Shown here piece after piece: positions 1-31,010 of a stretch of DNA of 46,925 nt; position 1 is the first letter of the stretch; the number at the start of each line of letters is the position of its first letter. The translations under genes were made by a program, and so were the position numbers. A model generated the notes under the pieces. The model was not told where the DNA came from and searched no databases. It saw only the letters and a list, made by a program, of their open reading frames with translations. Source of the stretch: Thermoplasmata archaeon (GTDB lineage Archaea; Thermoplasmatota; Thermoplasmata; Lutacidiplasmatales; UBA184); assembly GCA_022750335.1 (NCBI GenBank), contig JAKIVX010000013.1, forward strand, positions 1 to 46,925, read 5' to 3'.

Positions 1-210
1 GAGTGTCTCATGGATGGTTTCCTCGCGACAACATGGTGGCCTTGCCAATTCGGAACTGATTGGTACTATAATAGTTGGTGCTGTGCCCGAACCTACTTGA
101 GGGGGGGATCCGTCCCCCAAGATGTCCCTGTCTGTCAAGTCTCTCGTCAGCAAGTCGCGACACAGCAGTTAAAAAGAGCAAGTGGTCAGGTGCAAGGAGT
201 TTTGGACTAG
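1..210. other. Leader region before the TetR gene
   Basis: I see no convincing gene here. A short open frame at 10-210 has no recognisable composition and looks spurious. A TATA-like stretch, ACTATAATAG, lies at 65-74 and could drive the TetR gene, which would give a leader of about 120 nt. A purine-rich AAGGAG at 194-199 sits about 12 nt before the ATG at 211 and resembles a Shine-Dalgarno site, unlike the leaderless genes elsewhere in the window. Confidence 0.3.
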
Positions 211-873
211 ATGATTCACAACACCACTAGGCCGCGTGGACGACCGCGCAGCTTCGACGAGCTGGAAGCGCTGCAAAAGGCGACCCGGGTGTTCTGGTCG
301 AAGGGCTACGACGGAGTGACGATCGACGATCTCGTTGCCGGGATGGGCGTTGGTCGCCCGAGCCTGTATGCCGTCTTCGGGGGCAAACGGACGTTATTCC
401 TGCGCGTCCTCAGGGCGTACGCAGAGAAGAAGGGCGCTCTCGCTGCGAAGGCAATCTTCTCGCCGCAGCCTCTTCGCGACTCGCTCGCCAGCTTCCTGAG
501 GTACTCCGTCGAGAGTGCGACCGAGGAAGGCTGCCCTGCGGGTTGTCTGCTCGTGTGCGTCGCGCCGCTTGTGGACGACGCAGAGGTCCGGCAATTCCTA
601 CAGAACACTACGGCTGGCGGCGTGGCGATGGTGGAACTTCGTTTCCGGGACGGGATCAGCGCGGGAGATATCCCGTCGGACTTTCCTGTAGCCGCGCGGG
701 CGAGCCAAGTCGCGGACCTGGTCCGTGGTTTGACCGTGCGTGCGAAAATGGGCACGGCGCGCAAAACGCTTCTCCGGGAAGCAGAGGAGGCGGTCGACTT
801 GGTCCTTCTGCCGCGGGGGACTAGCCGCGGGCCAAGCGGAAGTGCCCGGAAGGCCCGTACGGTTCGAGGCTGA
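211..873 (+). CDS. TetR/AcrR-family transcriptional regulator
   Basis: A 220-residue protein with the layout of TetR-family repressors. The N-terminus (about residues 18-65) is a helix-turn-helix: a helix ending in FWSKGYDGVTIDDL, then GVGRPSLYAVFGGKRTLF, which matches the TetR recognition-helix consensus. The rest would be the helical ligand-binding and dimerisation domain. The ATG at 211 follows a possible AAGGAG ribosome binding site. Such proteins usually repress a neighbouring efflux or oxidoreductase gene; none is intact next to it, although a possible coding remnant lies just downstream on the opposite strand. The ligand is unknown. The basic last 25 residues look unconserved. Confidence 0.85.
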   Translation: MIHNTTRPRGRPRSFDELEALQKATRVFWSKGYDGVTIDDLVAGMGVGRPSLYAVFGGKRTLFLRVLRAYAEKKGALAAKAIFSPQPLRDSLASFLRYSVESATEEGCPAGCLLVCVAPLVDDAEVRQFLQNTTAGGVAMVELRFRDGISAGDIPSDFPVAARASQVADLVRGLTVRAKMGTARKTLLREAEEAVDLVLLPRGTSRGPSGSARKARTVRG

Positions 874-27218: not shown

Positions 27219-27785
27219 TCACTGCCTCGGGACGAGCACCGGCTGGTCCCCGGAGAGGTCCACGAGCGATGAGGGCCGGCCGGACGGCGGCGGGACCGAC
27301 GGAAGGTAGACGGCGACCTCGTTCCCGAACGCGCGGCGCGCCTCGGTCGGAGTGCGAGCATTCGCCGCGCCGTGGCGATTCGCACTGGTGGCGGTGATCG
27401 GCCCAGCCCTCCGCGCCAGTTCCCGGGCGATCGGGTGGTCGGGGATCCGAACGCCGAGACGGCCTCCCGCCGGCACGATCGAGGACGGGAGCGACCGTCG
27501 TGCGCGGGGACTGGGACGGACGAGGAGCGTGTACGGTCCGGGCAGGTGACGGCGGGCCCACGCCCGGGACGCGACCGACAGCTCCGCCCAGGAGTCGATC
27601 TCCTCCGTGGAACTGAGCGCGATGGACAGGGGTTGGCCCCCAGGGCGGCCCTTCAACCGCTCGAGCCGGTCGACCGCGGCCCGATCGGTTGCCCGGGCCG
27701 CGAGACCGAGCAGCGTGTCCGTGGGGTAAACGACGAGGCGACCGCGGGCGACCGCCCGTGCGGCCTCCGGGGTGGTCGATGCCAT
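27219..27785 (-). CDS. tsaC: Threonylcarbamoyl-AMP synthase (YrdC/Sua5 family)
   Basis: A 188-residue protein making threonylcarbamoyl-AMP for the tRNA t6A modification. YrdC-fold motifs are VVYPTDTLLGLAARATDRAA, LKGRPGGQPLSIALSS (the KGR..PL signature), LPGPYTLLVRPS, GRLGVRIPDHPIAREL and GPITATSANRHG. It is the short single-domain TsaC form, without the Sua5 C-terminal domain. It lies between ndk (4 bp gap) and map (1 bp gap) in a tight operon. Confidence 0.9.
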   Translation of the reverse strand: MASTTPEAARAVARGRLVVYPTDTLLGLAARATDRAAVDRLERLKGRPGGQPLSIALSSTEEIDSWAELSVASRAWARRHLPGPYTLLVRPSPRARRSLPSSIVPAGGRLGVRIPDHPIARELARRAGPITATSANRHGAANARTPTEARRAFGNEVAVYLPSVPPPSGRPSSLVDLSGDQPVLVPRQ

Positions 27786-27789
27786 CGCG

Positions 27790-28248
27790 CTAGGCGTACT
27801 CCTCGCCCACCCGCGAGTAGGCCAGGTAGTCGGCCGAGGTGAAGTACAGCGCGAGTTCCCGCGCCGCCGATTCGGGGGAGTCGGAGGCGTGGACCAGGTT
27901 CGGGGTGATCCCGAGCGCCCAGTCGCCCCGGATCGTGCCCGGGGCGGCGGTCTGGGGGTTGGTGGCCCCGGTGAGGAGACGTACGACCGAGATCGCGGAA
28001 CGCCCCTCGAGCGCGAGCGCCATCACCGGGCCGGAGGTGATGTGCTGGATCAACGACGGGTAGAACGGTTTACCTTCGTGTTCGGCATAGTGCCGCTGGG
28101 CGTGTTCCGGAGCGATCCGGAGCGCCTTCGCCGCGACGATCTTGAGCCCCTTTTCCTCGAACCGGGTGACGATCGCTCCCACGAGACCCCGGCGAACGCC
28201 GTCGGGCTTGACCAGGACCAACGTACGCTCCGTGCTGCCTTCCGACAT
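27790..28248 (-). CDS. ndk: Nucleoside diphosphate kinase
   Basis: A 152-residue enzyme exchanging gamma-phosphates among nucleotides. It opens with TERTLVLVKPDGVRRGLVGA, has HYAEHEGKPFYPSLIQHITS and GPVMALALEG, and the phospho-His site is ITPNLVHASDSPESAARE (about residue 118). The ATG at 28248 lies 27 nt after AGCTTTACGC. In many archaea ndk directly follows rpl24e; here the two are separated by a methyltransferase and a Cas4-like gene pair, which suggests a later insertion. tsaC and map follow. Confidence 0.95.
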   Translation of the reverse strand: MSEGSTERTLVLVKPDGVRRGLVGAIVTRFEEKGLKIVAAKALRIAPEHAQRHYAEHEGKPFYPSLIQHITSGPVMALALEGRSAISVVRLLTGATNPQTAAPGTIRGDWALGITPNLVHASDSPESAARELALYFTSADYLAYSRVGEEYA

Positions 28249-28270
28249 CGTCCGGTCGAAACCGACCGGC

Positions 28271-28280
28271 GCGTAAAGCT
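28271..28280 (-). promoter_or_regulatory. TATA box of the ndk-tsaC-map operon
   Basis: AGCTTTACGC on the minus strand, centred about 27 nt before the ndk ATG. Confidence 0.45.
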
Positions 28281-28339
28281 TTCCTTCCGACTCGCTCGAG
28301 CGTCCCGCGGGGGAGGCGATGACCCGCCGAAGCGCACGG

Positions 28340-29134
28340 ATGGAGCGACTGGCCCGCACCTTCGACCGCTCAGCCACGCTGTACGAACGGGGGCGTCCGG
28401 ACTATCCTCGGAGCGCGATCCGCTTTGTCGCAGAGACCTTCGGTCTCGGACCGGGCTCGGTGGTCGTCGACCTCGCGGCAGGGACGGGGAAACTCACGCG
28501 GGCGATCCAGGTCACGGGGGCGGCGGTCGTCGCAGTAGAGCCGATGGCCGGCATGCGCCGTGTCTTCCGTCGGGTAGTGCCCGACGTGCCCGTGGTGAAC
28601 GGCCGCGCCGAGGCGATCCCGCTCCCCTCTGAGTTTGCCGACGCGGTCTTCGTGGGCCAGGCGTTCCATTGGTTCCGGGGTCGGAGCGCCGTACGGGAGA
28701 TCGCCCGTGTGCTGCGCCCCGGCGGCATCCTCGTCCTGGTCTGGAACACCCGAAGCGATCGGGTACGCTGGTCCCGGGCCCTCACGGAGATCGTCGGGCG
28801 AGCCGGAGGACCGGGCACCTACGCGCACGCGAGCGGGAACGGCGACGCGTGGCGTCGCCCGTTCCGGCGGGGCGCGAGCCCTTTCACCGGCCTCCAGAAG
28901 CGGACGTTTGCCCACTCCCAATCCGCGACCCCCGCGACGTTCGTCGACCGGATCCTTTCGGTGAGCCATGTGGCGGCGCGACCGCGGTCCGTGCGCTTGC
29001 GGGTCGCGAGGGAAGTGCGCGCTGTGCTGGCAAGCGACCCCGGTACCCGAGGCCGAACCACCGTCGAGCTCCCGTACCGGACCGAGGTGTTCTATGCCCG
29101 TAAACGGCCGGCCCCAGTGGCGACCTCGCGCTAG
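28340..29134 (+). CDS. Class I SAM-dependent methyltransferase
   Basis: A 264-residue methyltransferase of unknown substrate. SAM-binding motif I is VVVDLAAGTGKLTRAI (about residue 40), the acidic loop is VVAVEPMAGMRRVF, motif IV is FADAVFVGQAFHWF, and post-motif REIARVLRPGGILVLVWNTR follows. The FHWF and ERGRPDYP segments resemble small-molecule or ubiquinone-type methyltransferases. The ATG at 28340 is taken; 28319 is possible. It is divergent from ndk and overlaps the convergent Cas4-like gene by 4 bp. Confidence 0.82.
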   Translation: MERLARTFDRSATLYERGRPDYPRSAIRFVAETFGLGPGSVVVDLAAGTGKLTRAIQVTGAAVVAVEPMAGMRRVFRRVVPDVPVVNGRAEAIPLPSEFADAVFVGQAFHWFRGRSAVREIARVLRPGGILVLVWNTRSDRVRWSRALTEIVGRAGGPGTYAHASGNGDAWRRPFRRGASPFTGLQKRTFAHSQSATPATFVDRILSVSHVAARPRSVRLRVAREVRAVLASDPGTRGRTTVELPYRTEVFYARKRPAPVATSR

Positions 29135-29643
29135 ACCGCGCGCGCGTCGCATCCGTCCCGCCACGGGCAGTGCGTGCACCGGGCGACGGACGGGGTCGCT
29201 CGGCCGTCGTACGGTCGCCCGATCGCAGCCCGCACGTCGAGGAGCTCGTCGCGGGTGGCGCGGTCCCACGGGATCCGCGCTTCCCCGCCGTCCCCGTACC
29301 GGACCACCCCGAAGGGAGGAGCCGTTCCCGTAGCCTCCTCCACCAAGAGGCAGTAGGCCGCGACCTGGATCCGGTGCGAGCGGGGGACCCCATATCGGGG
29401 GGACTTCCGGCTCTTGAACTCGATCGGGACGAGTCGTCCATCGGGAAGTCTCCGCAGCTCGTCGGGCCGGCCCGAGATCCGGTACTGGTTCGACCGCAGG
29501 AGCGGGCCGGAACCGGAACGCTCATCCACCGAAACGAGCGCACCGTTTCGTGCCTCCCGGTGTCGGAGCGAGAGTGCCCGCCCGGCGAGGACCAGGACCG
29601 CCGCTCCCCCGAGGACCAGCGCGAGCGCCTCGATATCGGTCAC
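29131..29643 (-). CDS. Cas4-like nuclease, catalytic half (split gene, part 2)
   Basis: A 170-residue protein from the GTG at 29643. A membrane helix (ALALVLGGAAVLVLAGRAL) is followed by a basic stop (SLRHRE) and a PD-(D/E)xK nuclease core: Asp in YRISGRPDELRRL, E-x-K in LVPIEFKSRKSP and the Q..Y motif in HRIQVAAYCLLVEE. The C-terminus carries three cysteines (CTHCPWRDGC) of the Cas4-type Fe-S cluster. The fourth cysteine and the first active-site His are encoded by the gene just upstream, whose stop overlaps this start (GTGA). No CRISPR array or cas1/cas2 is nearby. A longer start at 29652 is possible. Confidence 0.72.
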   Translation of the reverse strand: MTDIEALALVLGGAAVLVLAGRALSLRHREARNGALVSVDERSGSGPLLRSNQYRISGRPDELRRLPDGRLVPIEFKSRKSPRYGVPRSHRIQVAAYCLLVEEATGTAPPFGVVRYGDGGEARIPWDRATRDELLDVRAAIGRPYDGRATPSVARCTHCPWRDGCDARAV

Positions 29644-29900
29644 CGGAACCACAGGATCCCTCCGACCATCGCGAGGAGCCCGACGGCGACCAGCAACCAG
29701 TACCAGCCTCCGAACTCGGCCCGGCGCCGCTCCCCGCCCAGTTGTCGCTCATGGGACCGGGTACCGGCGGTGGAGCTCCGGACCGCGTCCCGCGACGGTC
29801 CCCCGGGCGGAGGATGGTGGCGGTACCAGTACGAACGGGGACAATACGCGTAGTCAGCGAGGTCGGACGCGGAGACGTAGGGCGCCCCTCCGGACGTCAT
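29640..29900 (-). CDS. Cas4-like nuclease, N-terminal half (split gene, part 1)
   Basis: An 86-residue protein. YVSASDLADYAYCPRSYWYR (about residues 8-27) matches the N-terminus of Cas4/RecB-like nucleases with the first cluster Cys, and GTRSHERQLGGER holds the motif I His. It ends with a membrane helix (WYWLLVAVGLLAMVGGILWF) and three residues later stops. Part 2 begins with another helix, so the two chains would form a hairpin with both soluble halves in the cytoplasm. The join is a GTGA overlap; a -1 frameshift there would give one ordinary two-helix Cas4-like protein. It lies 61 bp after rpl24e. Confidence 0.65.
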   Translation of the reverse strand: MTSGGAPYVSASDLADYAYCPRSYWYRHHPPPGGPSRDAVRSSTAGTRSHERQLGGERRRAEFGGWYWLLVAVGLLAMVGGILWFR

Positions 29901-29961: not shown

Positions 29962-30390
29962 CTAGGGCGGAGGGGCAGGGGACTCGTCGGCGGGCTTCTT
30001 CGCCCGAGTGCGCGGCTTCCGGGCCGGTTTCGCGTCGGCCGCCGGGGCGGCCGACGGAGTCGCGGGTTCGGGAGTGGGTGGGATGGCCGGGACCGGCGGT
30101 GCCGCGGGCGGCTCCGCCTTCGGGGGCACGGGGACGGACTCCCGCTTCGATCGCCCGGCCGACCGTCCGCCCGCGGGGCGCGCGGCGGCGGCGGAACGGT
30201 CGGCGGCCTTCTTGAGCGCGTGGGCGCGGGTCCACTTGAGGCGGTGGCCGACGCGACCGAGATGGAGTTGCTGCTTGCGGCAGGAGGAGGTACAGAAGTG
30301 GAAGATGGACCCGTCGCGCTTGACGAACATCATGCCGGTGCCCGGTTCGATCTCGGCGGCGCAGAACGAGCACTGGCGCTTGACGACCAT
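29962..30390 (-). CDS. rpl24e: 50S ribosomal protein L24e with long C-terminal tail
   Basis: A 142-residue protein. The first 60 residues are L24e: a zinc site CSFC...FCTSSC (about residues 7-37) and RKQQLHLGRVGHRLKWTRAH. Archaeal L24e is normally only about 55-70 residues; here about 80 extra residues rich in Ala, Pro, Lys and Arg follow (for example PPVPAIPPTPEPATP and ARKPRTRAKKPADE). The tail resembles disordered basic extensions. It is third in the L7Ae-S28e-L24e operon, 10 bp after S28e. Confidence 0.92.
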   Translation of the reverse strand: MVVKRQCSFCAAEIEPGTGMMFVKRDGSIFHFCTSSCRKQQLHLGRVGHRLKWTRAHALKKAADRSAAAARPAGGRSAGRSKRESVPVPPKAEPPAAPPVPAIPPTPEPATPSAAPAADAKPARKPRTRAKKPADESPAPPP

Positions 30391-30400
30391 GTCGACCTAC

Positions 30401-30613
30401 CTACCGAACGGAGAGTTTCCGTGCTTCGCGGGCGGTCTCACGGAGGATGAGGACGTCCCCGAGACGGATCGGGCCGGCGACGTTGCGGGTGATGATCTTG
30501 CCGCGGTCGCGTCCGGCGAGGACCCGGACCTTGACCTGGGTGGCCTCCCCGGCCATCCCCGTCCGGCCCACGAGCTCGACGACCTCTGCGGGGGATCCCT
30601 TGTCTTCCGCCAC
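30401..30613 (-). CDS. rps28e: 30S ribosomal protein S28e
   Basis: A 70-residue small-subunit protein with an OB-like fold. [20 protein letters not shown] and [20 protein letters not shown] then [20 protein letters not shown] are full family signatures; the last matches the usual 'GDIL.L.ET.REAR.L' end. It starts at the GTG at 30613, 25 bp after L7Ae and 10 bp before L24e. Confidence 0.95.
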
Positions 30614-30638: not shown

Positions 30639-31010
30639 CTACTTCTTGAGGTTCGGGAACTGGGCGGCGATCTCTTCGAGCAACGCCTTCGCATCGCCCG
30701 GCTCCACGATGGCCACGCTGGCCGCCGACTTGGAGAGACCGGCCGATTGGCCGAGCCGCTGCTTCTTTGCGACGTAGATGTAGGGAATCCGCTTCTCTTC
30801 GCAGAGCATCGGGATGTGGACGAGGATCTCGACCGGGTCGACGTCCTCGGCCATGACGACGAGCTTGGCTTCCGCCCTCTCGCTGGACTTGGTGACCTCG
30901 TTGGTACCTACCCGGATCTTGCCGGTCTCCGCCGCCACTTGGACGAGCTGGAGGGCCTTGTCGGAGAGTTCCGTCGGTGTCTCGAATCGGACGTAGATGG
31001 GTCGCGCCAT
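30639..31010 (-). CDS. rpl7ae: 50S ribosomal protein L7Ae
   Basis: A 123-residue kink-turn binding protein, part of the large subunit, of box C/D and H/ACA RNPs and of RNase P in archaea. It has the signature GTNEVTKSSERAEAKLVVMA (about residues 36-55), then EDVDPVEILVHIPMLCEEKR and IPYIYVAKKQRLGQSAGLSK. It heads the operon with S28e and L24e. The leader is about 45 nt long with a strong hairpin flanked by GTGA and CTGA, which could be a site for autoregulation. Confidence 0.96.
   Translation of the reverse strand: MARPIYVRFETPTELSDKALQLVQVAAETGKIRVGTNEVTKSSERAEAKLVVMAEDVDPVEILVHIPMLCEEKRIPYIYVAKKQRLGQSAGLSKSAASVAIVEPGDAKALLEEIAAQFPNLKK

Follow-up and report, generated by a model that had tools for sequence, protein, structure and literature searches.

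Cas4 (TIGR00372, PF01930; structures 7mi4/7mi5, 8d3l, 4ic1 and 4r5q) is a CRISPR-associated nuclease with a PD-(D/E)XK active site (H, D, E-x-K and Q..Y), four Cys ligands, one N-terminal and three C-terminal, and a gene found next to cas1/cas2 or a CRISPR array. Cas4-like genes that lie outside CRISPR loci and are mostly vertically inherited, referred to as solo-Cas4, have been reported, including in many Chloroflexi, and have been proposed to act in defence or repair (PMC5704561). Moreover, a Cas4-like nuclease reduces plasmid transfer or maintenance in Synechococcus (PMC10653904). The PD-(D/E)XK fold is also found in the Fe-S RecB-type nuclease domains of AdnA, AddB, Dna2 and EXO5, which appear to have one Cys before and three after the catalytic core and are soluble, single-chain, and part of helicase-nucleases or exonucleases. 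A Cas4-like fold without CRISPR is present in the Argonaute-associated Cas4 family protein ACE1 (9iab, 9iac), a single chain. Here we describe a Cas4-like protein that is encoded as two small, overlapping genes, each with one predicted membrane helix, in an arrangement that is kept in dozens of soil archaea and in Chloroflexota bacteria. In literature searches restricted to open-access papers we found no description of a membrane or split Cas4, and the main text of the solo-Cas4 study (PMC5704561) contained nothing that we could find on membrane helices or a split gene.

The locus was examined within a window of 46,925 nucleotides (the whole stretch of DNA that was analysed; contig JAKIVX010000013.1 of assembly GCA_022750335.1) from a Thermoplasmata archaeon of the UBA184/Lutacidiplasmatales group. 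The original prediction was that a membrane Cas4-like nuclease is split at this position into two translationally coupled polypeptides that join at an exact GTGA stop/start overlap. We confirmed the features at this position and found that the genes, for which no strand had been given, run on the minus strand. The features are as follows.

29640..29900, minus strand: part 1 gene (86 aa), the Cas4 N-terminal segment, with the motif YCPRSYW (cluster ligand C20) and the G46-x3-H50 motif, ending in one membrane helix
29131..29652, minus strand: part 2 gene (173 aa from the GTG at 29652, or 170 aa from the GTG at 29643), a membrane helix followed by the Cas4 C-terminal segment, with GRPD (D61), IEFK (E75, K77), Q93..Y97 and the C-x2-C-x5-C residues C156, C159 and C165 (numbered from 29643)
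29646..29702, minus strand: membrane helix of part 1 (residues 67-85), predicted N-in/C-out
29572..29628, minus strand: membrane helix of part 2 (residues 6-24), predicted N-out/C-in
29659..29663, minus strand: GGAGG Shine-Dalgarno-like site 6 nt before the GTG at 29652
29640..29652, minus strand: gene overlap, with the upstream GTG start at 29652-29650, a second GTG at 29643-29641 and the part 1 stop TGA at 29642-29640
29962..30390, minus strand: upstream neighbour, a ribosomal protein L24e-like gene, which with S28e (30401-30613) and L7Ae (30639-31010) forms the conserved upstream context
28319..29134, plus strand: convergent methyltransferase-like gene whose end overlaps the end of part 2 by 4 nt (29131-29134), the conserved downstream context, followed by NDK (27790-28377, minus strand) and a Sua5-like gene (27219-27785, minus strand)

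The GTGA overlap at 29643-29640 is real. However, the two closest relatives keep only the upstream GTG near the junction, together with the GGAGG site, and the natural overlap is therefore more probably 13 nt.

To determine which family the two parts belong to, we compared them with profile models. Part 1 matched positions 2-41 of TIGR00372 (E 2.6e-4, 20.9 bits) and part 2 matched positions 51-178 (E 2.5e-13, 50.3 bits), and only the two parts joined passed the cut-off of 65 bits, with a score of 67.8 bits. PADLOC Cas4 models gave the same tiling. PF01930 was likewise passed only when the parts were joined (25.5 bits against a cut-off of 22.7, compared to 20.1 for part 2 alone), whereas PF12705, of the PD-(D/E)XK superfamily, was passed by part 2 alone (34.4 bits against 22). 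Note that a Pfam match of part 1 to a Trp-operon membrane protein was far below cut-off and was taken to reflect helix composition.

A profile of part 2 found Cas4 chains first in the PDB, and a structural model of part 2 (pLDDT 92.3; helix at residues 2-30) matched Cas4 first in a Foldseek search. In a comparison by VIA the part 2 model aligned to 7mi4 with Z 13.2 over Cas4 residues 66-174 and to 7mi5 with Z 11.4 over residues 66-190; it also matched ACE1 (Z 8.3), and the Fe-S RecB-type domains were listed among the structural matches. By contrast, a model of the one-chain relative, albeit of modest quality (pLDDT 65), aligned to Cas4 from residue 5-6 on (Z 17-18; 7mi5 Z 18.1 over model 4..308 and Cas4 6..179), with the helices inserted between. 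Part 1 therefore corresponds to the Cas4 segment that part 2 lacks, and the chain break and helices lie between Cas4 residues about 60 and 66.

To test whether the split is conserved, we searched 78 genomes of the same genus, of which 72 had a match to part 2, though some of these matches were only to a distant paralogue. (This paralogue, a 274-aa single-chain PD-(D/E)XK-like protein with the Cys pattern CGGC..C, is found in the genome that contains the window, on its contig C36 at about 48022-48402, and in many genus genomes, and is not a fused version of the pair.) In all 56 loci that hold both parts, the two are adjacent and in different frames. The invariant or nearly invariant residues are C20, R22, G46 and H50 in part 1 and G58, P60, D61, P73, E75, K77, H90, Q93, Y97, C156, C159 and C165 in part 2. 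In the genome pairs tested (6 for part 1 and 7 for part 2), dN was well below dS for both parts. Where part 2 is missing, part 1 is missing or only a fragment or weak match remains, and in three such genomes the contig ends directly after the L24e gene, which makes the pair look absent in some otherwise fairly complete genomes. One second copy of the pair, in a genome with an intact one, has lost Cys ligands and looks degenerate.

The split extends beyond the genus. Record titles place the group in Thermoplasmata, including UBA184 and Candidatus Lutacidiplasma silvani (order described in PMC9287336). All 7 genera of the family are split, and split pairs also occur in another Thermoplasmata family (f19), as a second copy in family f11, and beside a one-chain copy in family f27. 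Two other families of the same order and most other families of the class instead have one chain of about 330 aa with three or four predicted helices between the same two segments, or of 540-560 aa with eight; the helices of these one-chain homologues lie exactly at the split point. In Chloroflexota, 43 of 151 genomes gave a match, and of 37 loci examined 33 are split, 1 is fused with exactly two helices and 3 showed no N part. Across both domains C, G and H in the N segment and D, E, K, Q, Y and three Cys in the C segment are invariant in the sampled alignments. Note, however, that a few Ktedonobacterial homologues have lost the catalytic Asp: in the fused two-helix version it reads Ala (ARPAYVV), and a split copy reads GKPTYVM. 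Some Ktedonobacterial copies may be catalytically dead.

In a tree of the C segment the one-chain forms are one clade. With soluble Cas4 as outgroup this clade nests among split forms (support 95/95 for the one-chain clade and 80-84 on the backbone), which would make the one-chain form a re-fusion. Monophyly of the split forms was not rejected (AU p 0.32), however, and one long-branch row and the modest backbone support make this history tentative.

We next examined gene context. In the genus and most sister genera the order is L7Ae-S28e-L24e-part1-part2-(methyltransferase, opposite strand)-NDK-Sua5-methionine aminopeptidase, a housekeeping site (the names L7Ae, S28e and L24e were assigned from sequence and established archaeal gene order). 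Cas1 was found in only 13 of 78 genus genomes and was not found in the genome that contains the window, which is 72% complete; moreover, no direct repeats of 22 nt or more within 120 nt occur in the window. Consistent with the original prediction, a role in CRISPR adaptation was therefore not supported, and the locus fits solo-Cas4 as a split membrane variant. In family f19 the split pair is the third and fourth gene after smc (PF02463, E 3.6e-27) and a kleisin-like gene in 8 of 8 loci, with short overlaps where resolved, followed by a tyrosyl/tryptophanyl-tRNA synthetase-type gene and, in 7 of 8, a convergent XPG/FEN1-like gene. Note that this context is limited to one family, that the kleisin assignment rests on weak matches (ScpA, E 0.005-0.012, below cut-off) and on position, and that a literature search on smc/scpA gave nothing relevant. 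The one-chain gene is directly preceded on the same strand by a TPD-domain (PF14811) gene in 7 of 18 class loci. These contexts point to DNA maintenance rather than adaptation, but this is an inference.

Part 1 ends about 2 residues after its helix and part 2 starts about 6 residues before its own. One helix was predicted in 90 of 90 part 1 homologues and in 83 of 90 part 2 homologues, and net charge is positive on the soluble flank of both helices (mean +1.4 before helix 1 and +3.1 after helix 2). This fits N-in/C-out for part 1 and N-out/C-in for part 2, so that both soluble segments would meet in the cytoplasm, as expected in one-chain relatives with an even number of helices.

Taken together, we consider it likely, on the basis of sequence, conservation and predicted structure rather than biochemistry or a predicted complex, that the locus encodes the two subunits of one membrane-tethered Cas4/RecB-type Fe-S nuclease. 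In this model ribosomes finishing part 1 restart at the overlapping part 2 gene, which yields the two chains together, each chain inserts one helix, and the two helices pair as an antiparallel hairpin, as in the one-chain relatives. Part 1 would supply Cas4 residues up to about 60 (the first cluster Cys and the G..H motif) and part 2 the rest (D, E-x-K, Q..Y and three Cys), with the nuclease site and a presumed 4Fe-4S cluster forming across the chain boundary. The heteromer, the cluster, the nuclease activity and the topology are inferred. The most likely role, processing of DNA ends or single strands in chromosome maintenance at the membrane, is only weakly inferred.

Of the alternatives that we entertained, the one that survives best, though we think it unlikely, is that the complex is a defence nuclease acting on incoming DNA at the membrane (plasmids, viruses, DNA uptake). 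Placement at the membrane and the proposals made for solo-Cas4 and the Synechococcus protein are in keeping with this idea, but the fixed housekeeping context, the near-universal presence in the family, the lack of a link to cas1 and the absence of relatives in the viral contigs searched argue against it. It is improbable that part 2 is a self-sufficient nuclease or scaffold and part 1 a separate membrane regulator. Although part 2 alone is predicted to fold well and carries D, ExK and Q, part 1 holds the invariant C, G and H that the Cas4 model needs and no other conserved domain, the two are adjacent in the genus loci holding both, in all 7 genera and in the 33 split Chloroflexota loci, and in one-chain relatives the same segments are covalently joined and both align to one Cas4 chain.

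We also tested whether programmed -1 ribosomal frameshifting might join the two frames into a single working product of about 258 aa, because part 2 is in the -1 frame relative to part 1 in all 54 genus loci where a start was assigned. The part 2 start lies 1 nt before, up to 25 nt before, or rarely after the part 1 stop, and the part 2 frame has a start codon at -20..+4 of that stop in 52 of 54 loci, far beyond chance, with ATG in 25, whereas the other two phases have 17 and 0 starts and no ATG. An in-frame X-XXY-YYZ heptamer occurs in 1 of 54 loci, at -78. Matches of 5 nt or more to GGAGGTGA precede the start in 25% of loci against 4% of control positions, although the observed value takes the best of several candidate starts, which favours it somewhat. 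In other lineages the phase differs and part 2 starts after the part 1 stop by up to tens of bases, and the constant phase in the genus follows from ATGA/GTGA-type overlaps. Frameshifting is thus very unlikely, and two separately initiated chains are favoured. Finally, an assembly error or recent pseudogene of a one-chain gene can be dismissed, even though the window is from a MAG and one-chain homologues exist in the same order, because the same split occurs in dozens of independent assemblies and in a second domain of life, with conserved catalytic and Cys residues and dN well below dS.

A broader reading, which we regard as tentative and rather less likely than not, is that of a widespread class, spanning Archaea and Bacteria, of two-subunit membrane nucleases in which a single 4Fe-4S cluster and a single PD-(D/E)XK site are each built from two separate membrane-anchored chains. 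In this reading the split form would be ancestral to the one-chain membrane form, a later fusion, and in one lineage it would work with SMC-kleisin at the membrane.

The conserved housekeeping context offers a handle on what solo-Cas4 proteins do outside CRISPR, an open question stated in PMC5704561. Moreover, because the cut falls exactly where one-chain relatives carry their membrane helices, the case gives a clear natural experiment in gene fission and fusion. Known Cas4/RecB-type Fe-S nucleases seem to carry their cluster and catalytic residues in one soluble chain, and a conserved form that divides them between two membrane-tethered chains would make cluster assembly depend on the meeting of the two subunits, and could act as a safety or localisation device for a DNA-cutting enzyme.
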